In this document: positions 32,975-45,798 of the stretch, piece by piece
Position numbering within the stretch: position 1 is the first letter of the stretch
Layout of the letters: each line of letters opens with the position of its first letter
DNA from: Hondaea fermentalgiana
Taxonomy: Eukaryota; Sar; Bigyra; Thraustochytrida; Thraustochytriidae
Reading direction: 5' to 3'
Length of the DNA: 55,728 bases
NCBI GenBank assembly: GCA_014084085.1
Contig: NPFB01000084.1
Coordinates: forward strand, 231,066-286,793
Made by a program: the position numbers and the translations under genes
Notes under the pieces: model-generated
What the model was told of the DNA's origin: nothing
The model's input: the letters and a program-made list of their open reading frames with translations, nothing else
The model's database searches: none

Positions 32975-35900
32975 CTACTTGCGGGCCTTGCCGCGAAGAC
33001 CCCGAAATTTAGGCGTCACCTTGGGCATCTCAAAGGCCTGAGAAGCACGCTTTTGCTTTGCCTTCTCGTTGCGCAGCTTGATCGCTCGTGCGTTGAACTT
33101 TTCGGAAACTTGCACCCGGCGCAAGGAACTACGCGGGTCATCCCGGAGGGAGCGGCGCTTGCCTTTGGATCTGGAGCTGGCTCCCGAACGACGACGCGAA
33201 GGGGGGGGTGCCACGGCGCGGCGCGTTGCCCGGCGTGCTTTCTTCGCTTTTGATTTACGACGAGACGACGAAGGTGCAGTCATGGCCGAGCGGAATTGCA
33301 TAATCATTTCTTCCAAGTATTCAGATCCAGCCCCGCCCATGAGCGTGCCCGCGGCAATCATGGCCGCAAAGATGGGCATGAGATTGAGATGACGCACCAC
33401 CATGCCCACAATGCCCAGCAGTGTCGGCAAAAAGTATAAGCCGACAATGGGGACCAGCCAGACGAGGACGTCGCGGTTGTTTTCGACCCAGGGCGGCATG
33501 TGCCAACTGAACTTGAAGCGCTGCTGTTCGGCGCGGCGACGACGGCGACGGCGCTCTGCACGCGACTTGCGCATCACATAATCAAGCCAACGCTGGAAGT
33601 GCGGGTTGGTTTGAATGATCTCTGCGGCGAGTGCGCGGCGCTCCAGTACGAGCTCGGACTCGAGACGAACCAAGTATCCACGCACATTCCGCTGAATGAC
33701 GAGCGCTGCATATCGCTCGCGAAACTCGGCGCGATGGCGGCGAAAGGCGCGCTGGATGCGGACGATGCTGTCGTAAGTGCGCTCGGCTTTTTTCATTTCA
33801 ATGTAGGAGAGCGTGGCCTGGCGCAGAAACATCTTCGTCTGGCCAATCTGGTAGTCGACACCATGCTTGAGCTTGATATTTTTGCAGATCTTTTCGCAAA
33901 CGGCGCGCTGCGCCTTGCGGTCGCCACTTTTTGCGAGCTTCATGCCTTCCTTGGCAGCTTTGCGCAAACCAAAGCCCAGCACCGCGAATCGCTCGACAAA
34001 GTCACCCAACGTGAAACGAGAGGGATACCCAGCCTTGGTGACCCGGACCAACTCAATCACGCCCGAATAGCGCAGCTGATTGACCATGGGCACGCGCTCG
34101 AAGCGGCCGGCTTTGTTGGCTGCATTTGGTTTGAGACATCGGACATAGTGCGGGTCGCTGGCACGAATGACGGCCATGGCACTTGCGAGCTGGTTCTTAA
34201 AGTGCGAGCCCACAGTAGTCTTCAAAAGCTTGGTGCCTCGCTGCTGCGGCGGGGCAGCCGACAGCGATGCGCCTCGAGCGCGACGCGGGCCCTTGCCTCC
34301 GTCTGACATAAGGCTGTCAAAGTGTGCGGCCATGTCTGCGCCGCCCGCTGCGGCCTCGGCGCTTGCCGGGAGCAACATACTCACCAGTCGGTCGCTCGAG
34401 GAACGCAGCACATCAACTGCCTCTTGCCGAAGCTCATTCTTATTCTTGATGCAAAAGCCATCGATGCAGTACGAGACTTGGCCCGCGAAATGGCACACCG
34501 TGAACGACGAACTGATCCGGTCGCTACGCTTGACGAGAAAGTGCTCGGGGTACTTTTTGGGAAGGTTGCTGTAGAGCTTGGTCAAGAGCGTCGCGTCGGT
34601 GCCCTGCGGCCAGAGGCACTCTTCGTCGATGAGAGAAAGCAGGCCAATTGGCTTGGACTCGATCATGGCGATGCACTCTGAATTGTCGGGAAACTCGACA
34701 AAGGTCCAATCGATGCCTTCGCGGACGTACTCTTCCTGCTCGTAGCGGAAAACGAACTCATTGAATTGCTGTTGGAGCTGCTCGTTGGTGTAGTTGATGC
34801 AGAGTTGCTCGAACGAGTTGACTTCAAAGACCTCAAAGCCGAAAATATCCAGACAACCAATCAGATAGTCTTGCGAGGGCTCACGGTTTGCGTCTGCCTT
34901 CTTGCCAAGACCAGAAACACTGAGAGCTTGTGCAAAGGCCCGATTGACGCTGGCACGGAATGGATTCAGACTCGAGCCTCCACTCGAAGATGCCGCCGTG
35001 GCTGCGGGGGCCACAGGGGCGTCTGCGACGTCTTCTTCCTCACCGCGCCGGCGAGCGCGCTCCAAGTACTGGCGCTGTTGTTCCTGGCGCGCGAGCATGG
35101 CCTCATACTGTTTATCGTCCATGCCAATGCTCAGGTTCGTGCGCCACACGATCCAACCGAAGATGCGCTCGTACAGGTTCATGGCGAGCGCGTCGCGCGC
35201 ATCCTCGGCCTCGGCGAGACTCATGGCCTTGACCACAGTCTCACCGCGTCCAACGCTAATGACACGCTCCGTTAAGACGCGGGCGACCTCGCCGGCGTCC
35301 ACGCCGAGAAGTTCAGCCGCGATGTCGACGGACTCCTGCTCGTTGACGATCTTGGCGGTTGGAATACCTTCGCGACTGGTGTGCTCCTTGAAGTCGATGT
35401 TACCGAGATGGAGGACAGCGACAACGCTGCGGAAAATGCGCTCAATGTCAGAAGGCTGAAAGTTGAGCACTTCCATAGCGCCCACGGTGGTTTGAAACTG
35501 TGCAAGATCATCAATGTCGGAGCGACGCATCGTTCCGCTCTGGCCCGTATACCTGCACGACTTGAGAGATTTAGGGAATCGCCAACGACGTTTTTGCTCT
35601 GCGCTTGCACCCGCAGCAAGCTCGTAAAAGATGTGATAGTTGCGTTCGCCAGAGGTTTGGTGCACAACGCGTGCCTTTTCCAAGAGGTAGGTTTCCACGT
35701 AAGCGCCCTTGAGGTCGCCCTTGTTTTCGTCGAACATGACCTGGATGAACTTGCCGAAACGCGACGAATTGTCGTTGCGCAGCGTCTTGGCGTTGCCAAA
35801 GGCCTCGAGGACCGGGTTGGCGCGCAAAACACGCTCTGCTGCATACGCTCTGCCGCCGTGCTTGCGTCCGATCGAGCTAACATACGACAAGTAGTTGAGC

Positions 35901-37117
35901 ACAATCTTGACGGTCTCCGTCTTGCCCGCACCAGATTCGCCACTGACGAGGATGCTCTGGTTGCGTCCGTTGCGCTCAATAAGGGCGCGATAAGCGTCAT
36001 CGGCGAGCTTGTAGACGTGTGGGGGTAAGTCCACGGCCTTGAGGCGATCTCCAGATGACGTGAAGCCCTTGCTCGCTTCCATGTACCGGGAGGCTGTTTC
36101 TTTGCCGTAAATGTCGAGCGTCTTGAAGGGGTTGACGGCCAAGAGGATGGGGCCCGTGTATGTGTAGATGCGATCGCGCGCAAATCTGTCTTGCAGAGCC
36201 TGCAAAAGTGCTGGCTCGTGCAATGCCTTGAGCTTGGTGAGGTCGTCTACCTTGTAGAGGGTACTTTCACTTTCGAGAATAGGTTCAACGTCATCAGGCT
36301 CTGCGGTGACAACAGCACCCCTTCCTCGACCGCCAACTTCGACATTGACGCAGCCTTGGGTTGCGGTCTCCTTGGAAATAACTCCTGGAACCCACGCCTC
36401 GTCGGTGTCGCGCACCCACACCAGCGCGCCAGCCTTGCTGAGCTGTTTGGCCTTTTCGGCAACGGAGATGCTCACGTCAACATAGCCAAGACCGCGGTTG
36501 GCTTTGAGACCTGCCTTGCTGGTGCTACTCTTGGAGCTCTTCAGGCTCTTGCCGCTCGGGCGTCTGCCGGATTTGCTCGTGCGCTTGGAGCCCTTGGCAG
36601 ACGCCTTGGAAGGTCTCCGGGCCTTATCTTTGCTGGATCGCTTGAGTTTGCGTTCCTTGCTCTTGCGCGTCTCTGTAATTGTTCTGGGACGAGGGGGGCG
36701 TGCTTGAATTATGGCGGCTGCAGCGCGTGCCAAGTCCGCGGCCTTGGCCTTTTCGGATTTGAGAGAGAAGTTCAGCTCCTCCTCAATCTCGGGGTCGATC
36801 TCGTCATCAGAATAGTCGTCGTCGTCGTCAATATCGTCGACGAGATCGTACGTGTCGTCGTCATCGACTTCGGTGTACTCGTCATCGTCGTCGTCCAGAT
36901 AGTCATCCTCGTCGTCGAGAATCACGTCCTCAAAGGTCCCATCGCGGTGGAAGACGACCGAGTACTTTTCCTCCAAGGTTTCGATGAGGTCTTCCTCGCG
37001 CCCGGTGAAGTGGGTGATGACGCGGTCGAGGTCTGGGACCTTTTCGGGCGCGTACTCGGTGTAGAAGCCGAGCAGGACCTGTCTGAGGTCCCAGGTCTTG
37101 GTCTTGCCGCGGCCCAT
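32975..37117 (-). CDS. Unconventional myosin heavy chain with C-terminal membrane segments
   Basis: A 1,380-residue single-exon myosin with ATG at 37117. Residues 1-230 are a non-motor extension: a YxxYAPEKVPxLD..ITHFTGREEDLIETLEEKY block (~15-60), an Asp-rich stretch (~65-115), then a Lys/Ser-rich stretch. An SH3-like strand set (GALVWVRDTDEAWVPGVIS, ~232) precedes the motor, which has P-loop GESGAGKTE (~392), switch I NDNSSRFGKF, switch II/relay DIFGFEVFEVNSFEQ (~758), the converter-proximal DPHYVRCLKPN and KTMFLR-like lever start (KMFLRQA). Two or three IQ motifs (IVRIQRAFRRHR, LVIQRNVRGYL, ~1115-1145) follow. After a basic spacer, ~1212-1262 contains strongly hydrophobic segments (VLVWLVPIVGLYFLPTLLGIVGMVV and MPIFAAMIAAGTLMG). 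The tail is about 100 Arg/Lys-rich residues. This suggests an actin motor anchored directly in a membrane. The class is not assigned. Confidence 0.92.
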   Translation of the reverse strand: MGRGKTKTWDLRQVLLGFYTEYAPEKVPDLDRVITHFTGREEDLIETLEEKYSVVFHRDGTFEDVILDDEDDYLDDDDDEYTEVDDDDTYDLVDDIDDDDDYSDDEIDPEIEEELNFSLKSEKAKAADLARAAAAIIQARPPRPRTITETRKSKERKLKRSSKDKARRPSKASAKGSKRTSKSGRRPSGKSLKSSKSSTSKAGLKANRGLGYVDVSISVAEKAKQLSKAGALVWVRDTDEAWVPGVISKETATQGCVNVEVGGRGRGAVVTAEPDDVEPILESESTLYKVDDLTKLKALHEPALLQALQDRFARDRIYTYTGPILLAVNPFKTLDIYGKETASRYMEASKGFTSSGDRLKAVDLPPHVYKLADDAYRALIERNGRNQSILVSGESGAGKTETVKIVLNYLSYVSSIGRKHGGRAYAAERVLRANPVLEAFGNAKTLRNDNSSRFGKFIQVMFDENKGDLKGAYVETYLLEKARVVHQTSGERNYHIFYELAAGASAEQKRRWRFPKSLKSCRYTGQSGTMRRSDIDDLAQFQTTVGAMEVLNFQPSDIERIFRSVVAVLHLGNIDFKEHTSREGIPTAKIVNEQESVDIAAELLGVDAGEVARVLTERVISVGRGETVVKAMSLAEAEDARDALAMNLYERIFGWIVWRTNLSIGMDDKQYEAMLARQEQQRQYLERARRRGEEEDVADAPVAPAATAASSSGGSSLNPFRASVNRAFAQALSVSGLGKKADANREPSQDYLIGCLDIFGFEVFEVNSFEQLCINYTNEQLQQQFNEFVFRYEQEEYVREGIDWTFVEFPDNSECIAMIESKPIGLLSLIDEECLWPQGTDATLLTKLYSNLPKKYPEHFLVKRSDRISSSFTVCHFAGQVSYCIDGFCIKNKNELRQEAVDVLRSSSDRLVSMLLPASAEAAAGGADMAAHFDSLMSDGGKGPRRARGASLSAAPPQQRGTKLLKTTVGSHFKNQLASAMAVIRASDPHYVRCLKPNAANKAGRFERVPMVNQLRYSGVIELVRVTKAGYPSRFTLGDFVERFAVLGFGLRKAAKEGMKLAKSGDRKAQRAVCEKICKNIKLKHGVDYQIGQTKMFLRQATLSYIEMKKAERTYDSIVRIQRAFRRHRAEFRERYAALVIQRNVRGYLVRLESELVLERRALAAEIIQTNPHFQRWLDYVMRKSRAERRRRRRRAEQQRFKFSWHMPPWVENNRDVLVWLVPIVGLYFLPTLLGIVGMVVRHLNLMPIFAAMIAAGTLMGGAGSEYLEEMIMQFRSAMTAPSSSRRKSKAKKARRATRRAVAPPPSRRRSGASSRSKGKRRSLRDDPRSSLRRVQVSEKFNARAIKLRNEKAKQKRASQAFEMPKVTPKFRGLRGKARK

Positions 37118-37712
37118 GGTCCTCGGGCCGAGCCGAGGACAACGTAAGGTACAGCGCGCGTCGCTCAGCTCAGCGAGGCGTTCTCGGTGGCAGGCGCAGG
37201 CCAACCTTGTCTCGTGCAGGGAGCAGCGAGCCAGTTAAGCTTGGCCGTCTTCTGTCTCGGCCCGGCTCGGCTCGTCTCGCCGTGCCGCGCCGCGCTTCGC
37301 TGGCGTCGCCGCGCTTCGCCTCGCTCCGTTTCTGCTCGCTGCGGCGTGCGTTTCTGAACAACTTGAATTGAGAAGGACGAAGGAGCGCCGAGGAGCGAGC
37401 ACGTGCGTGCGTGTGTGCAGAGGATGACCGTATGCAGTCGTTCGTCTGCACGTCCACACGCCCGCGCGAGCTCCCGCCGCACCAGCGCCACGTCCCGCCG
37501 CGTCCGGCCGCCTCCCTCCTCGCCTGGCCGCCTGCTCGCCTCCCTCCCTGCCTCCGCCGCCGCCGCCGCGCGCGCAGCCTGGCCTGCTACTCCAGTTTGT
37601 TGCTTTCCCTCCCTCTCTGCTCTCTCTCTCTTTCTGCCCCTCTCTTCCACGCTGAGTTTTCGAGCTCACCTTGCGGACGCGCGCCATACCCGACTTCGGC
37701 GGCGCGCAGCGG

Positions 37713-38441: not shown

Positions 38442-38768
38442 TGTCGGTTCAAATCTAGCGCAGGGCGAGCAAGCACGTTCATACATACCGCATACCCCGA
38501 ATAGGCCGCGCGCTGGCGCCAGGAGAGGCCGCGGCACGCACGCACGCACGGACGGACGCGAGCGAAGACGCTGCGTACGCTGGGCTACGTGGCGTCTGGG
38601 TTGGCGTCGAGGTCGGGACGTGCTCGCTCGCTTGCTTGCTCGCTTGCTTGCATCCCTGCATCTTCCACTGGTTTGCGTTCCATTGCGATCCATTGCGCGC
38701 TGTGCTGCACGGCGCTGCGCTGGGCGGCGCCCCCGAAGCGAGCGAGGGCTGGACGCCGCGCGCAGAGG

Positions 38769-41700
38769 ATGAGGACGTGGGCGGCGGCGACGATTGTGGC
38801 GGCCGCAACGGTGGCCGCCACGATCGAAGGGTCGCGAGGCGACAAATGTACGGCGGCGCAGCAGCTGGAACTGGAGGAAATTGACAAGTTCAACAAGACG
38901 CTGTACAATACATCGGACCTGTTCTACGATGGAGACGCCACGTGCGCGGACGGAAGCCCAATCGGGTTCTACTATGGAGAGGCGTCAAACAGCGGCATCG
39001 ACGAGGAGGGCGCCGCCGACTTTATTATCTGGCTTGGAGACTCGCCCATGTGCTCCGGGACAGACTGCGACGAGCTCTGCGATGGCACGGGCAAGTACCA
39101 GGAAACCACCAACAGTGCCGTCTGTGCAGGGTACTCGAACGAAGACTTTTTCGGCGGCGAGGACTTTGTCAACATCGCAGAGGATGGCCTCACCGAAGAG
39201 CTCGCGCGCTGCCTCTTCTCGCGCGTCGTCTGCACCAGCTCCTGGTGGGACGCATACCCCCGCGTCACGCCGCAGACGCTTCTTTGCCCGGACGACCCGG
39301 ACATTGCCAAGTTCCGTCGCGTCTACGTGCCCACCTGCACGCTTGACTGGTGGATGGGAAACGGAACGAGCGCCTCGAGCGAGAGCACGAGCAGTGATCG
39401 CGAGTTCAGACACCGTGGCCACCGCGTCCTTCGCAACGTGCTCATGGAGCTCGCATGGAATCACAACCTGACCATGGCGAGCCGCGTCATGATCGGCGGT
39501 ACGCGAGGCGCTGCCATTGGTGTCATGAACATGATCGAGCAAATCAAAATCGACCTCGACGATATTCACGCCGAGTTCGACGCCGTATACCTGACGACAC
39601 CCAAGTCCCGCGAAGTCTTTGCCGTGCTAGACTCGCCGTGGTTCTTTAACATTGAAGAGTTCACGCCAGAGACAGACGACGCGAGCCAGATTTTCGCCGT
39701 CGAAAACCTCTTTCGCACCCAGTCCGTCGACTGGATCGACAACGGCATCCTGAACTCTGAATGTGTCACGAACCAGGACCCAGGCAAGGAGTGGCGATGT
39801 TTCTTGCCTGGCGAGCTGCTCAAGACGCTCGAAGACACCAATGTGCTCGTGCTGCAGAGCCAGTTCGATCTGCTCCACCTCGAGCTGCTCGGACTCATGG
39901 ACGAGGACAAGAGGGAGTTCTACGTCGATGACACCTCTTTCGCGTCTTCGGCCATCTCCTACATTGAGACTTTTGGCGAGCTTGTTCGGGAAGACGTCGT
40001 GGCCGCAGCGGCGCTCTCGAGCGCGGCTAGCGCCAAGCACCACTACTTCTTACCGGCGTGCGGCCAGCATGGCTACATTGTGCCGACCTCGAACCATCGT
40101 GTGCAAGAGCGCACCGAGGAGATCAAGGGCTTTGGCACGGTCGATTTCCAACGAGATTTCGAGGTCTGGGAGACCGTGTCGATCCAGAACAATACCAGCG
40201 GCAGCAGCGGCTCGAACGCGTTTGTCGTGCGTGACATGGTCAAGTCCTTTCTTGCCTCGAACGGCGAGGACATTGGCGCCGGGGCCTCGTCGAGTCTCAT
40301 TGCCGACACTTGCGGCTCTTTTCTCTGCAACGACAAGTGTTTGACCGAGGTAGAACCGTTCAAGGTCGCCACCGATTTCAGCTCGTGCGTGCAGTACATG
40401 GTGCTCGCGTACGGCATCATGTCCGTCTTGATTTTCCACGTTGGCTTTGCACTGAGCTACGCGCAAGTGCGCGCCTTCCGAAAGAATGTGACCGCATACT
40501 GGAAGCGCATCAAGCTCATCGACAGTGGCGACAACGAGCAAGGTGTGCGCGAAGTCCAGCAGCAGCTCCTGAACGAGGCCAGCAGTACGGAGTACCGCAA
40601 GATCCACCTTATGGTCAAGAACCTGTCGTACTGGGCGCCACCGCGCTTTCGGCGCGAAAAGCCTCACCGCATTCTACACGAGGTCGATCTCTCGTTTGCG
40701 CCGGGTTCTCTGCATGCCATCATGGGCCCTTCGGGCAGTGGCAAGTCGACCTTGTTGGACCTTTTGACGCTAACTCGCGATACGGGCGCCATCGCCGGCC
40801 AGCATTACATTAATGGCGTGTCTTCTGACTCCAAGGAGTGCAAGTTTCTTCGTCAGTGGCTGCGCCACAACACGAGTTACGTGCGGCAGACCGATGTAAT
40901 TTTCCCGCTGCTCACGGTTCGCGAGCACTTGGTGCACGCAGCATGGATGATGCTCCCGCAGTACATGCCGGCGGAGGCCAAGCTGCGCCGCGTGTGGCAG
41001 GTCATTCGTCTGCTGGAGTTGAGCGAGTGCGCCGACACCATTTGTGGTGATGGCGGCGTTAGCGTGGAGGGCGGCATTTCTGGTGGCCAGCGCCGCCGCG
41101 TCTCGGTCGCCACCCAGCTGCTCAAGCTTCCGGCTGTCCTGCTGCTTGACGAGCCAACCTCGGGACTCGACTCGACCAATGCGCTGCTGCTCATCAAGTC
41201 GCTCCATGTCATGGCACATGAGGCCAGCGTGAACGTGATGATGACCATTCATCAGCCGCGCCGCGAGATCTTTGAGTACTTTGACAGTCTCAGCTTTCTC
41301 GTGGCGGGCCGCGTCGTGTTTTCAGGAGACGCTGCGCAGGCTGCCGAGCACTTTCGCATTCCAGACTCCTCGACCAATATTGCCAACGACATTCTCGATC
41401 TCTTGCAGACGGCGTCCTCCGAGACCGTGCAAGAATTTGAGGACATTTACCTTGACGGTGATCTTGGCGAAGCTGTGCAAGCCTCGATGGAGGCCGAGAT
41501 TGCCGATCTCACGCCAGGCATGCTTGCCAACCTCAAGGCGATTCTCGTGGAGAATGCCTTAGCCGAGGGTCGCTGGTCGTGGTCCGAGTCGTCGTCTGCA
41601 GCAACGCTGGCGTGGGTGCACTTGGCGCGATCGATGCGCCGCGGTGGCTTTGAGATCTTCTCCACAACGGCGCTCTCGCTCGTTGGTGGTGTTATTGTCG

Positions 41701-43775
41701 GCACTGTGTTTTACGACATTGACACGTATACCTCTCGCACGGCGCTCTCTTACCTGGCGGTCGCCACCATGACCTTCATTCAGGGTACCTTTTTGGGCGA
41801 CCGCTACCTTGGTGAGAAACGCATGTACGACCACGAGGCAGATGCCGGTACCTTTCGATCTTGGGTGGCCTTCCTGCTGAGTCAGTTCATGCGCGACGCC
41901 GTCACCTCGACATTTGAGGCCTTGGCCTTTGCAGCGCCCGTATACTGGCTTGGAGGCATGAACCCGGCGCTCGAACGTTTTGGGCTCTTTTTGCTCATCA
42001 TGACGCTCACATCCTTTGTGGTGCTGTGCCAGAACGTGCTCATCGAGATTGACCGCGATGACGTCCGCGTGGCAGCCATGTTGCAGATTGGTGTGCTGGG
42101 TCTTGGTGCGCTCTTCAACGGTTTCATTGTCAAGCTCGACGACCTTCCCGTGTATCTCTCGTGGGTGCCGTACACGATGGTCACGTACTGGTCATTCGTG
42201 GCGACGCTCATTAACGATTTGTCGGGTGAAAGCTTGCCCTGCGATTTGACCCGCCTTGAGTGCGCGGCGCGTACGGGTGACGTCGTGCTGCGGTCTCTAT
42301 CGTACGACAACCGTGATGTCTACATTTGCATTCTCATCCTCATCGTCTTTGTTTTTGTCTTTCGCATTTTGGCTGTCGTCGACTTTTATGTGCGCTATGT
42401 GCGCAAGCGCGGCGACCGCCTCAAGCGCAAGGAAGACTATGGCGTGGGCAGCTTCCGCACGGGCAGCTCTCCGGCCCTCATTATGAACCGCACGGGAAGC
42501 CGCGCGTCGCGCTCCGGCACACCGAACTCGCGTTTGACGCCTGGAAGCAAAAACACCATGGGTGCCATGCTTGAGACGCAGACACCCACGATGAAGCGCC
42601 AGGAGTCGAGCACCACGAAGAACTCTGGTCTCTCGACGCCTCGCACACCCTACGCCGGTGCTTCGCCGCAGATCCCGGTGTCCATGTTCGACCTTTCGGG
42701 TCCGCCTCCAGGTTCGCAGCCGCCGCACATGCGCCAGTACGGCCAGCAGAATGACGACCTTCCTGAGATGGAGCTCGGGTACTACGACGAGGAGCACGAG
42801 CAACTATCCTTTGTGATGAACCCGACAGTCGCCTTTTTTCTTGACCGAAACGTGTTCCTGCTCTTTTTCTTACTCGATTTCTACAGCTCGGTGTACATTT
42901 GCGGTTTCGAAGTGTCCACGGATGGCACCAATATCGGTCTCTTGGTGGCCTCACTGGGCACTTCGGTCATTTATGTGGGTGAGTTCTTTTTCCAGTTGTT
43001 CTTTCTTATTCCGACGACGCTGGACGGCAAGCTCGATTGCACGTGGTATGGCGCCCGCGACGCCATGATGGGTCTTCTCATGGTGATCGATGTGGCGCTC
43101 ACCTCGCAGGCAACGGCCACGAGCTCGGACTTTGTGATTCAGATCATTCTGGGCATGGTCGTGCGTCTCACGCGATTCCTGCGGGTCCTTCTCTACTGGA
43201 ATAAGGTCGACCACTATCACCAAGCGACAGCGCTCTCCTTTTTGGAGCTCAAGGATGAGCTCATCGAGGAGGTCGCGCAGAACCAGGGCCGACGCATCTC
43301 TGGCTTCGATTCTGCCCCGGCGCCCACCGGACCTGCGTCGATGCGTCGTCCGCCGCGCCCGCAGCGTCGCCGCAGTCCGCATCCGACGCAGGCCTACGAG
43401 TCCGCAGAAACTCACGTGCCAGCTGTGGTGCGCATGCAGGCTGGGTCTCGCATCTCGATTGGTGGTGCCCGTCGCATCTCCCTTACTGGCAACACCCCTG
43501 CGAGCAACCGCCCTTCGCGTCCCATGCGTCCCGCACGACCTGCGCGTCCTGGCGCCACGACTCTCGACCGCGCGACCGCTGCAAGCCGAGCAAATGCCAC
43601 TGCCAACGCGCCTGGTTCTCTGTGGCGTCCCGCAGGAAATGGATACTACTACAATTCGGCCACCGGTCAGATGTTGTCGATCAACCAGCTTGCTCAGCGT
43701 CGCGCGCCTCCTCCTCCTCCTCCGTCGCGACCCAGCGCCACCGGCTCGGCCAAGGGAGGTCGCGGCAAGAAGTAA
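38769..43775 (+). CDS. ABCG-type transporter fused to Notum/PAE-like ectodomain and C-terminal voltage-sensor-like domain
   Basis: A 1,668-residue single-exon protein. A signal peptide (MRTWAAATIVAAATVAATIEG) precedes an ectodomain (~25-520) with pectin-acetylesterase/Notum traits: CADGSPIGFYYG, RRVYVPTCTLDWWMGN, FRHRGHRVLRNVL, RVMIGGTRGAAIGVMN and LDSPWFF. The nucleophile Ser of GxSAGG is absent (Arg aligns there). A TM segment (~543-570) leads to a complete ABCG nucleotide-binding domain: Walker A GPSGSGKST (~653), signature ISGGQRRRVSVA (~770), Walker B LLLDEPTSGLDS (~795), His-loop TIHQPR. The six-TM ABC2 domain spans ~945-1215. After a Ser/Thr/Pro-rich linker come four more hydrophobic segments (~1345-1475), the last being MVVRLTRFLRVLLYW with Arg every third residue; segment 2 has an acidic Glu and segment 3 an Asp, as in voltage sensors. 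The C terminus holds a WW-like LWRPAGNGYYYNSATGQ, then poly-Pro. It is probably a dimerising exporter at the cell surface; substrate unknown. Confidence 0.88.
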   Translation: MRTWAAATIVAAATVAATIEGSRGDKCTAAQQLELEEIDKFNKTLYNTSDLFYDGDATCADGSPIGFYYGEASNSGIDEEGAADFIIWLGDSPMCSGTDCDELCDGTGKYQETTNSAVCAGYSNEDFFGGEDFVNIAEDGLTEELARCLFSRVVCTSSWWDAYPRVTPQTLLCPDDPDIAKFRRVYVPTCTLDWWMGNGTSASSESTSSDREFRHRGHRVLRNVLMELAWNHNLTMASRVMIGGTRGAAIGVMNMIEQIKIDLDDIHAEFDAVYLTTPKSREVFAVLDSPWFFNIEEFTPETDDASQIFAVENLFRTQSVDWIDNGILNSECVTNQDPGKEWRCFLPGELLKTLEDTNVLVLQSQFDLLHLELLGLMDEDKREFYVDDTSFASSAISYIETFGELVREDVVAAAALSSAASAKHHYFLPACGQHGYIVPTSNHRVQERTEEIKGFGTVDFQRDFEVWETVSIQNNTSGSSGSNAFVVRDMVKSFLASNGEDIGAGASSSLIADTCGSFLCNDKCLTEVEPFKVATDFSSCVQYMVLAYGIMSVLIFHVGFALSYAQVRAFRKNVTAYWKRIKLIDSGDNEQGVREVQQQLLNEASSTEYRKIHLMVKNLSYWAPPRFRREKPHRILHEVDLSFAPGSLHAIMGPSGSGKSTLLDLLTLTRDTGAIAGQHYINGVSSDSKECKFLRQWLRHNTSYVRQTDVIFPLLTVREHLVHAAWMMLPQYMPAEAKLRRVWQVIRLLELSECADTICGDGGVSVEGGISGGQRRRVSVATQLLKLPAVLLLDEPTSGLDSTNALLLIKSLHVMAHEASVNVMMTIHQPRREIFEYFDSLSFLVAGRVVFSGDAAQAAEHFRIPDSSTNIANDILDLLQTASSETVQEFEDIYLDGDLGEAVQASMEAEIADLTPGMLANLKAILVENALAEGRWSWSESSSAATLAWVHLARSMRRGGFEIFSTTALSLVGGVIVGTVFYDIDTYTSRTALSYLAVATMTFIQGTFLGDRYLGEKRMYDHEADAGTFRSWVAFLLSQFMRDAVTSTFEALAFAAPVYWLGGMNPALERFGLFLLIMTLTSFVVLCQNVLIEIDRDDVRVAAMLQIGVLGLGALFNGFIVKLDDLPVYLSWVPYTMVTYWSFVATLINDLSGESLPCDLTRLECAARTGDVVLRSLSYDNRDVYICILILIVFVFVFRILAVVDFYVRYVRKRGDRLKRKEDYGVGSFRTGSSPALIMNRTGSRASRSGTPNSRLTPGSKNTMGAMLETQTPTMKRQESSTTKNSGLSTPRTPYAGASPQIPVSMFDLSGPPPGSQPPHMRQYGQQNDDLPEMELGYYDEEHEQLSFVMNPTVAFFLDRNVFLLFFLLDFYSSVYICGFEVSTDGTNIGLLVASLGTSVIYVGEFFFQLFFLIPTTLDGKLDCTWYGARDAMMGLLMVIDVALTSQATATSSDFVIQIILGMVVRLTRFLRVLLYWNKVDHYHQATALSFLELKDELIEEVAQNQGRRISGFDSAPAPTGPASMRRPPRPQRRRSPHPTQAYESAETHVPAVVRMQAGSRISIGGARRISLTGNTPASNRPSRPMRPARPARPGATTLDRATAASRANATANAPGSLWRPAGNGYYYNSATGQMLSINQLAQRRAPPPPPPSRPSATGSAKGGRGKK

Positions 43776-44166: not shown

Positions 44167-44925
44167 TCATCCTCCTCGTGAAAGCTCGAGCTGCGGATCC
44201 CATGCAATAGGATCATAAAAAGGTCTTGGCGTTCCCAAAAGGCAAAGGGCGACAAGAAACAGCAATAACGAGGTGATGGCGAGAACCCAAGAGAGAGAAA
44301 AGATTACAAGCATGGGCGTGCCCACGGATGCAAAGGTTGTCGCGGCACTTGAGCTGAGGCTCTGAATAGCCGAGAGGACCTCATTATAGCAGCCGTAAAA
44401 GTAAGCGTATGAGCTATCGGCTCCAATGATGAGCACGATAAAGTTGATGAGAACATAGGCTGCAATGTAAGCCAGGAGCAAAAAGCGATGGCCGCTCTCG
44501 AGCTCCTCGAGCGCGATATCGCCCTTGTACTCCTTGTAGGTAAACCATATAAGTGGGAAGCTCATCAACATGGCAATGACAAGGAAGAACATGAAGAGGA
44601 TCGACTTTGCGTTCCAGCCGGGCGTGCTCGTAAAGAGTACCGTAACATCCGAAGAGCCGACGCTACAGTTGCCGTACTCGGTGTACGTAACATAGTCTGA
44701 GAAGGAAGGCGCGAAAACGTCGAGATACTGCGTCGTGCCCGCGTCAACGTAGTCCACCACACGGTTCACAAGGAGTAGACCCATGAGCCCGAGCGTCAAG
44801 GCGAGGTTCACGATCGGGATCCCCAGCAGGTACGTGCGCTCGTTGTTGAAGCAGGCCCAAAGGTACCAGCACGGGCCTGGCGGGCGCTTGTGCCTTTTCT
44901 CGGTGCGGATCTCATTGCGCGCCAT
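44167..44925 (-). CDS. Four-transmembrane protein (unrecognised)
   Basis: A 252-residue membrane protein with ATG at 44925 (MARNEIRTEKRHKRPPG). The cytosolic-looking N terminus is basic. Hydrophobic segments lie near residues 31-56 (IPIVNLALTLGLMGLLLV), 108-130 (ILFMFFLVIAMLMSFPLIWF), 145-168 (LLLAYIAAYVLINFIVLIIG) and 205-235 (MLVIFSLSWVLAITSLLLFLVALCLL). The loop between segments 1 and 2 (~57-105) is long and polar with one Cys (YGNCSVGSS); the loop between 3 and 4 has another (FYGCYNEV), so a disulphide is possible if both are lumenal. Its topology resembles tetraspan/MARVEL-type proteins, but I see no CCG or other diagnostic motif. It diverges from the NUDCD2-like gene, whose ATG is 313 bp away. 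Confidence 0.75.
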   Translation of the reverse strand: MARNEIRTEKRHKRPPGPCWYLWACFNNERTYLLGIPIVNLALTLGLMGLLLVNRVVDYVDAGTTQYLDVFAPSFSDYVTYTEYGNCSVGSSDVTVLFTSTPGWNAKSILFMFFLVIAMLMSFPLIWFTYKEYKGDIALEELESGHRFLLLAYIAAYVLINFIVLIIGADSSYAYFYGCYNEVLSAIQSLSSSAATTFASVGTPMLVIFSLSWVLAITSLLLFLVALCLLGTPRPFYDPIAWDPQLELSRGG

Positions 44926-45238
44926 CGTTGGTCTGGGCCTTTCTTCGCACGCTCCGTGCGCGCGAAAATAGCCGTCTCGCTTTGCAGGCCTCGTTTCGCG
45001 TGACGCCCTCGATTCGGGATTCCGGGCTCCTGATCCGGAGTTCCGGGACGGCGGAGATGGCTTTTCGCGAGCGTAGACAGTCCGGAGACGTTGCTGCTGC
45101 TGCTGCTGCTGCCCAGGCACGGGACGCTGCGACGCGCGGTCCCGCATTGCATTTCGTTTGCTTGCTTGCTTGCTTGCTTGCTTGCGTGCTTGTTTGTACC
45201 GCGTATCACGCGCGAGAAAAAAAGGGGGTCGGGGAAAG
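44926..45238. promoter_or_regulatory. Divergent promoter, four-TM and NUDCD2-like genes
   Basis: A 313-bp spacer with a TGC/CTG run (about 45090-45112) and a TTGC tetranucleotide run (about 45159-45185) just before the NUDCD2-like start. The frame upstream of that start is open but has no earlier ATG in a good context. Confidence 0.5.
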
Positions 45239-45798
45239 ATGGGCGAGTCGAAGCGGCACCGGTTCGAGCACGACGGGCGCCTCGTGTACGAGTGGGAGCA
45301 AAACTTGGATGAGGTGCTCATTTACGTGAGGCCGCCAGAAGGCGTGACGGCCAAGATGATCGAGTGCAAGATCTCCAAGAACCACCTCACGCTTGGCATC
45401 AAGGGAAACCCGCCCTTTATTGACGTAAGTGCGCATTGAGAGAAAAAAGGTCGGTCGAGCGAGCGAAGAAGGGCGCTGACGACGAAATGCACACACGCTC
45501 GTGCATACGCATCACACAGGAGGATCTGGGCGACAGCTGTGAGGCTGGAGAGTCCATGTGGACAATGGACGATGGGGAGCTGGAGATTAATCTGAAGAAA
45601 ATGCGTAAAGCGTCGACGTGGGAATCTGCCCTCAAAGGTCACGGGGCGCTCGACCCCGTGGCCAAACAAGAAGTGCAAAAGAAGATGACCTTGGAGCGTT
45701 TCCAGGAAGAGCATCCCGGTTTTGACTTTAGTGGCGCCGACTTTAGCGGTGCAGCGCCGGATCCGCGCACCTTTATGGATGGCGTCAAGTATCAGTGA
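45239..45798 (+). CDS. NUDCD2-like CS-domain co-chaperone, two exons
   Basis: Exons 45239-45424 and 45520-45798 are joined across a 95-nt GT-AG intron (GTAAGT donor, ATCACACAG acceptor) in phase 0, giving 154 residues, close to human NUDCD2. Exon 1 starts the CS/p23-like beta sandwich (VYEWEQNLDEVLIYVRPP, then KNHLTLGIKGNPPFID). Exon 2 continues with the strand ESMWTMDDGELEINLKK and then WESALKGH, and the strongly conserved tail KKMTLERFQEEHPGFDFSGADFSG that identifies NUDCD2. Such proteins assist Hsp90 with WD40/propeller clients and dynein-pathway proteins such as LIS1. It could be relevant to the several WD40 proteins nearby, though neighbouring position is not evidence of interaction in a eukaryote. 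The gene ends 426 bp before the end of malic enzyme on the other strand. Confidence 0.93.

Follow-up and report, generated by a model that had tools for sequence, protein, structure and literature searches.

The window considered here is a stretch of 55,728 nucleotides from the thraustochytrid Hondaea fermentalgiana (Labyrinthulomycetes; assembly GCA_014084085.1, contig NPFB01000084.1, positions 231,066 to 286,793). Positions 38769-43775 of its forward strand form a single open frame of 1668 codons, which translates without an internal stop into a protein of 1668 residues (the window protein), in which a Notum/pectin acetylesterase (PAE)-like ectodomain is followed by one membrane span, an ABCG half-transporter, a four-helix module and a tail (Table 1). 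The frame is also open 5' of the methionine codon at 38769, as far back as a GTG at 38589. A preliminary description, made from the sequence letters, had noted the uninterrupted frame and the order of its three modules, and both observations were borne out: Pfam places PF03283 (PAE), PF00005 (ABC ATPase) and PF01061 (ABC-2 membrane domain) in this order along the protein, the same order recurs in 14 further proteins, and every string quoted in that description (CADGSPIGFYYG, VYVPTC, FRHRG, GGTRGAAIG and MVVRLTRFLRVLLYW) was located in the translation. Nothing in Pfam matched past residue 1149, up to an E-value (E) of 1.

A homologue search in which 7991 candidates were scored returned 59 proteins, and PF03283, PF00005 and PF01061 occur together in 15 of them (P0001-P0015, the window protein counted). 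Since the window protein shares this set of domains with 14 others, we regard the 15 as a conserved family; a chance open frame is rejected, because the three domains recur together across the 15 proteins. The family alignment comprises 15 rows (P0001-P0014 and the genomic paralog P0060, which replaces the annotated copy P0015), and residue counts out of 15 refer to this alignment, in which the first 60 residues are absent from P0006 and P0007 and mostly absent from P0013 and P0060. P0006 and P0008 are 94% identical, so that the number of independent members is nearer 14. The C-terminal module can be aligned in all 15 rows. By mean pairwise identity, the members are most alike in the ATPase (69%) and the membrane domain (53%), less so in the ectodomain (36%) and the four-helix module (32%), and least in the tail (24%) and the linker (20%). 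In P0006-P0010, a charged insertion of some 200 residues separates the first span from the ATPase.

Table 1. Features of the open frame; positions are those of the window, and counts refer to the 15-row family alignment.
Feature	Residues	Positions	Strand	Basis
Whole open frame: ectodomain, one membrane span, ABCG half-transporter, four-helix module, tail		38769..43775	+	1668 codons plus stop
Likely signal peptide	1-24	38769..38840	+	By eye
Notum/PAE-fold ectodomain	25-541	38841..40391	+	Pfam, Notum alignment, predicted model, structure comparison
Asp91, aligned to oxyanion-hole Gly126 of Notum; Asp/Glu 15/15	91	39039..39041	+	Alignment
Arg246, nucleophile position (Ser232 of Notum); R 11, G 2, N 1, L 1 (n=15)	246	39504..39506	+	Alignments, model
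Asp367, aligned to triad Asp; 15/15	367	39867..39869	+	Alignments
His434, aligned to triad His; H 9/15	434	40068..40070	+	Alignments
Membrane span between ectodomain and ATPase	544-562	40398..40454	+	Hydropathy
ABC ATPase domain (PF00005), motifs intact	636-798	40674..41162	+	Pfam, alignment
ABC-2 membrane domain (PF01061)	954-1149	41628..42215	+	Pfam
Last span of ABCG core	1186-1204	42324..42380	+	Hydropathy
Module helix 1 (S1-like); R1360, D1370, C1378 invariant	1360-1380	42846..42908	+	Predicted model, alignment
Module helix 2 (S2-like); aromatic 1402 13/15, E1405 1/15	1389-1412	42933..43004	+	Predicted model, alignment
Module helix 3 (S3-like); D1431, D1441 invariant	1429-1450	43053..43118	+	Predicted model, alignment
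Module helix 4 (S4-like, long extension); R1466, R1469, R1472	1455-1499	43131..43265	+	Predicted model, alignment
Pro-rich variable tail	1500-1668	43266..43772	+	Translation, family alignment

Named carriers of the family are H. fermentalgiana (P0015) and two records assigned to Batrachochytrium salamandrivorans BASA81, a chytrid (P0008 and P0011). The latter two fall inside the family in a quick 32-row ABCG tree, and by this placement they may be contaminants that derive from a labyrinthulid-like protist. The H. fermentalgiana genome that was searched (36.0 Mb in 238 contigs) holds a second copy of the gene at L002 706-4968 (-), which likewise forms one open frame and encodes P0060; no free-standing Notum/PAE domain was found in this genome search. 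P0060 is contained in P0015 except for its first residue letter (GTG start) and 15 residues that are absent from P0015, which, being present in the genomic frame, were probably lost to a wrong intron in the annotated model. The P0015 model is also wrongly fused to an upstream EF-hand/GTP cyclohydrolase II gene.

The complete ABCG half-transporter of the preliminary description is supported by the domain pair and by its solved relatives, the best of which are ABCG proteins. PF00005 (E 3e-25) precedes PF01061 (E 1.3e-17) in one chain, and the Walker A, Q-loop, ISGGQ signature, Walker B and H-loop are all intact in 15/15 rows. The window protein shares the ATPase-then-membrane order and these intact motifs with ABCG2, ABCG1 and ABCG5/8, but adds to them a front ectodomain with its own span, as well as a rear four-helix module and a tail.

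The ectodomain had been described as a dead Notum/PAE-like domain, and this description is strongly supported. The best PF03283 stretch in the window protein covers residues 175-442 (E 7.9e-18), and the predicted model was matched to the Notum alpha/beta-hydrolase fold in a structure search. In Notum, the oxyanion glycine is Gly126, the nucleophile is Ser232, and the pocket accommodates a fatty acyl chain (PMC8172013, in part). The domain described here differs from Notum and the plant pectin acetylesterases (PF03283, CE13) in that the nucleophile serine is retained in none of the 15 rows, in that the oxyanion-hole glycine pair is not kept (column 91 is acidic in every row and column 92 is Gly in 9/15), and in that it is tethered to a pump. 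The window protein holds the equivalents of both the triad Asp and the triad His. All rows keep the Asp of the active site and an acidic residue at column 91, which hints that the former active site has kept a role.

The predicted model of the C-terminal module (predicted local distance difference test, pLDDT, 86.5) contains four helices, the last of which is 45 residues long. The preliminary description saw here a voltage-sensor-like module with Glu in the second segment, Asp in the third and Arg at every third position of the fourth. The glutamate is present in the window protein (E1405) but in no other row, Gln being found in 10/15, so that an S2 glutamate is not a feature of the family. 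The third-segment aspartate is invariant, although there are two such residues (D1431 and D1441) rather than one. The arginine repeat holds in 12/15 rows, which have three basic residues, but not in the remaining 3/15, which have two: column 1466 is Arg in 14 rows and Lys in one, R1469 is invariant and R1472 is kept in 12/15. D1370 of helix 1 is fixed in 15/15 rows, as are K1479 and H1484 beyond R1469. Judging from the helix ends, D1370, D1441 and R1466 would lie in mid-membrane, and the loop charges, together with the ABCG core, would place both ends of the module inside.

We compared the module with 25 voltage-sensor domains taken from the H. fermentalgiana genome, chosen among 88 listed PF00520 matches, none of which falls within the 38769-43775 gene, and with 55 control transporters (9 MFS, 19 amino-acid, 10 TPT and 17 other ABCG). 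A strict S4-like arginine triplet is found in 12/15 modules, 8/25 voltage-sensor channel domains and 0/55 controls, and a two-Arg form in 7/15, 8/25 and 1/55, respectively, the search pattern having been devised after the module sequences had been seen. When aligned with hhalign, the 15-row module scores 28.3 against the 25 domains (probability 43%, p 2.4e-4), above the best of 37 control windows (16.6) and the best of 100 block shuffles (18.3). The score is 28.7 when P0001 is left out and 17.6 for the branch of P0012, P0014 and P0060 alone, and five true voltage-sensor domains, submitted one by one to the same test, score 73-131. An earlier run with 10/14 module rows gave 32.5 (69%), with reversed-sequence controls at 21.9 and 23.9, scores that came via 11 columns of arginine repeats; our reading is based on the 15-row comparison. 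The register of the helix-3 aspartates differs between the 10-row and the 15-row comparisons, the equivalent of the S3 aspartate being either D1431 or D1441.

A single member out of 14 is matched by PF00520, with an E of 0.0093 that is under the Pfam cut-off; the window protein is unmatched, and YrhC does hardly worse (E 0.014, also one of 14). With a profile of the module alone (14 of the 15 members, P0008 omitted), none of 6003 candidate proteins reached E 0.001, and no solved structure was matched up to E 10. Foldseek ranked soluble four-helix bundles first, with TPC channels from plants and humans lower down (ranks 10, 11 and 13) and Ci-VSP at rank 15 (E 1.0, template modelling scores 0.53/0.59); a second structural aligner gave no voltage-sensor chain among the 50 matches listed, which is not evidence of absence. 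The S2 aromatic and acid of a charge transfer centre are not conserved together, the aromatic being found in 13/15 rows and the acid in one. What stands of the voltage-sensor-like module is therefore a resemblance, made up of the arginine triplet, the invariant aspartates of helices 1 and 3, the helix-2 aromatic and a profile score above that of the controls, whereas kinship is not established, given the dependence of that score on S4, the missing helix-2 acid, the third arginine lost in 3/15 rows and the lack of a significant Foldseek match. We lean slightly towards regarding the bundle as a degenerate relative of voltage sensors; that it senses voltage seems improbable.

Sterols and amphipathic molecules are known substrates of ABCG half-transporters. 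Because of this, and because the Notum pocket holds an acyl chain, we infer that the cargo of the window protein is lipid-like, and we hold with modest confidence that the protein is an exporter which passes a lipid-like or acylated molecule to a non-cleaving Notum-fold ectodomain and is regulated by its C-terminal bundle. Two copies would dimerise via the ABCG core, as in ABCG half-transporters, and ATP would drive the amphipathic cargo outward. The Notum-fold domain, kept outside by its single span, would bind the cargo (or a surface glycan) without cutting it, and the four-helix bundle may tune pump activity, possibly via voltage. Several observations weigh against such an exporter. The ectodomain is the most divergent large domain, which also fits a variable surface binder. 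S1-S3 without S4 score 12.8 in hhalign, not above the controls, and because the signal vanishes in this way, the voltage-sensor kinship of the module rests mainly on its last helix. Foldseek gave no match to the module at E 0.001 or better, the best being E 0.31. Finally, the likely signal peptide was judged by eye only: the claim of one after the methionine at 38769 agrees with inspection but not with hydropathy, which for residues 1-24 stays below the threshold applied to spans, a threshold that P0004, P0011 and P0012 reach.

It is quite possible, if short of an even chance, that the four helices are unrelated to voltage sensors and form a packing, dimerisation or trafficking module, the arginine helix following the positive-inside rule. 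The Foldseek ranking, with soluble bundles on top and no significant match, the lack of relatives in the module-alone profile searches and a PF00520 match that is hardly better than that of YrhC all agree with this; but invariant mid-membrane aspartates in helices 1 and 3 and an invariant arginine in helix 4 would be costly for a mere anchor, and the profile score exceeds the controls.

Somewhat less probable, and in our view doubtful, is that the ectodomain does not receive cargo but binds a (sulfated) polysaccharide at the surface, anchoring the pump to wall scales or to the ectoplasmic net. Solved Notum entries carry, by their titles, a heparin fragment and SOS, which we take to be sucrose-octasulfate, and the ectodomain has diverged faster (36% identity) than the pump (53-69%). 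The sulfate-binding sites of Notum have been implicated in glypican binding (PMC8172013, in part). The fixation of the old active-site Asp and of the acidic column 91 in every row, however, speaks against a function confined to such surface binding.

A working voltage sensor, which would make the protein an ABC exporter gated by voltage, just as SLC9C1 is a voltage-gated exchanger, is unlikely. The arginine triplet absent from all 55 control transporters and the hhalign score above the control and shuffle maxima point in this direction, as do Y1402-x-x-E1405, D1431 and the three arginines of the window protein, which correspond to parts of a charge transfer centre; in SLC9C1 this centre comprises Tyr743, Glu746 and Asp767 (PMC10620092, in part). 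Against it, Glu1405 is confined to one row and the third arginine is missing in three, the reversed controls of the 10-row run reach 23.9 through the arginine-repeat columns, the branch of P0012, P0014 and P0060 scores 17.6 by itself, true voltage-sensor domains score far higher than the module, the helix-3 Asp register is unstable between hhalign runs, and the arginine pattern was written post hoc. We give no better chance to the fullest version of this idea, namely the first ATP-driven pump with a voltage sensor, a dimer in which S4-type helices would set export according to membrane potential and which would pass acylated cargo to a Notum-fold pseudo-esterase that shields it outside the cell.

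Retained enzyme activity of the ectodomain, through a shifted nucleophile (Thr or Ser at column 245), is very unlikely. Column 245 is Thr in 12/15 rows and Ser in 2/15, and P0014 combines Ser245 with the Asp and the His, but ungapped alignments to Notum and two PAE proteins place column 246 at the nucleophile, the residue between strand and helix in the predicted model is 246, the glycine two before it (column 244) is present in 15/15 rows whereas column 243 is A, S, V or M in 6/15, and the His is absent in 6/15. A misreading of two or three adjacent genes as one can be practically dismissed, as the three domains lie within single proteins in 15 rows and the paralog, too, is encoded in an uninterrupted frame, even though the gene is known here from genome sequence alone and the paralog model P0015 is itself a wrong fusion.

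In the quick 32-row tree, the family forms one clade with a Shimodaira-Hasegawa-like approximate likelihood ratio test (SH-aLRT) value of 100. Its sister is formed by the chytrid proteins P0019 and P0020 (SH-aLRT 97; 97 without P0020 and 94 without P0019), a placement that is only a lead given the long branches and small sample. P0019 and P0020 likewise consist of a hydrolase ectodomain, a span and an ABCG core, but their ectodomain is a PF00135 carboxylesterase with GQSAG kept, and their listed sequences lack the four-helix module. The occurrence of a different esterase ectodomain in these sister proteins indicates that the pairing of a hydrolase fold with an ABCG pump may be old or repeated. 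P0021, P0018 and P0024 are presumably Adp1-like or plant ABCG24-28-like proteins. Adp1-like proteins (e.g. P0021) have the same layout of ectodomain, span and ABCG core, but their ectodomain is Cys-rich (by eye) and not of esterase fold, and they form a separate clade, on long branches. A literature search on EGF-like/Adp1 ectodomains brought up no paper of use.

Even without voltage sensing, the protein is a clear case of a hydrolase converted into a transporter ectodomain. Thraustochytrids are oil producers, so that a candidate lipid exporter is of interest in this group. Were voltage sensing to hold, the protein would be the second voltage-controlled case after SLC9C1, here in a primary pump, and voltage control would extend to ABC transporters. 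SLC9C1, the sperm Na+/H+ exchanger, is a transporter with an S1-S4 module (PMC10620092 and PMC13095418, both in part), and in both proteins the transporter core precedes an S1-S4 module whose S4 is long. SLC9C1 is, however, a secondary exchanger that has a cyclic-nucleotide domain and whose sensor has been tested by experiment, whereas the protein described here is a predicted ATP-driven pump with a putative sensor. The term 'ABC transporter' is absent from the main text of PMC13095418, and the main text of a proteomic study of thraustochytrid ectoplasmic nets (PMC12221091) contains no mention of ABC transporter, ABCG, Notum, pectin, voltage or transporter. Among the open-licence papers listed by our searches, we found neither an ABCG-PAE fusion nor a voltage-sensing ABC transporter nor their combination, in keeping with the earlier statement that no named family has this order of parts.

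The Pro-rich tail (43266-43772), which also occurs in P0002-P0005, has a conserved terminal motif, W..xGxGYYYNxxTGQ, of WW-like appearance and without a Pfam match. Downstream, an adjoining frame of 384 residues at 44167-45321 (-) shows several stretches that look hydrophobic by eye; Pfam gives it no match at E 0.001. On the other side of the gene, 32975-37204 (-) encodes a myosin (PF00063), whose C-terminal hydrophobic stretches resemble membrane spans.
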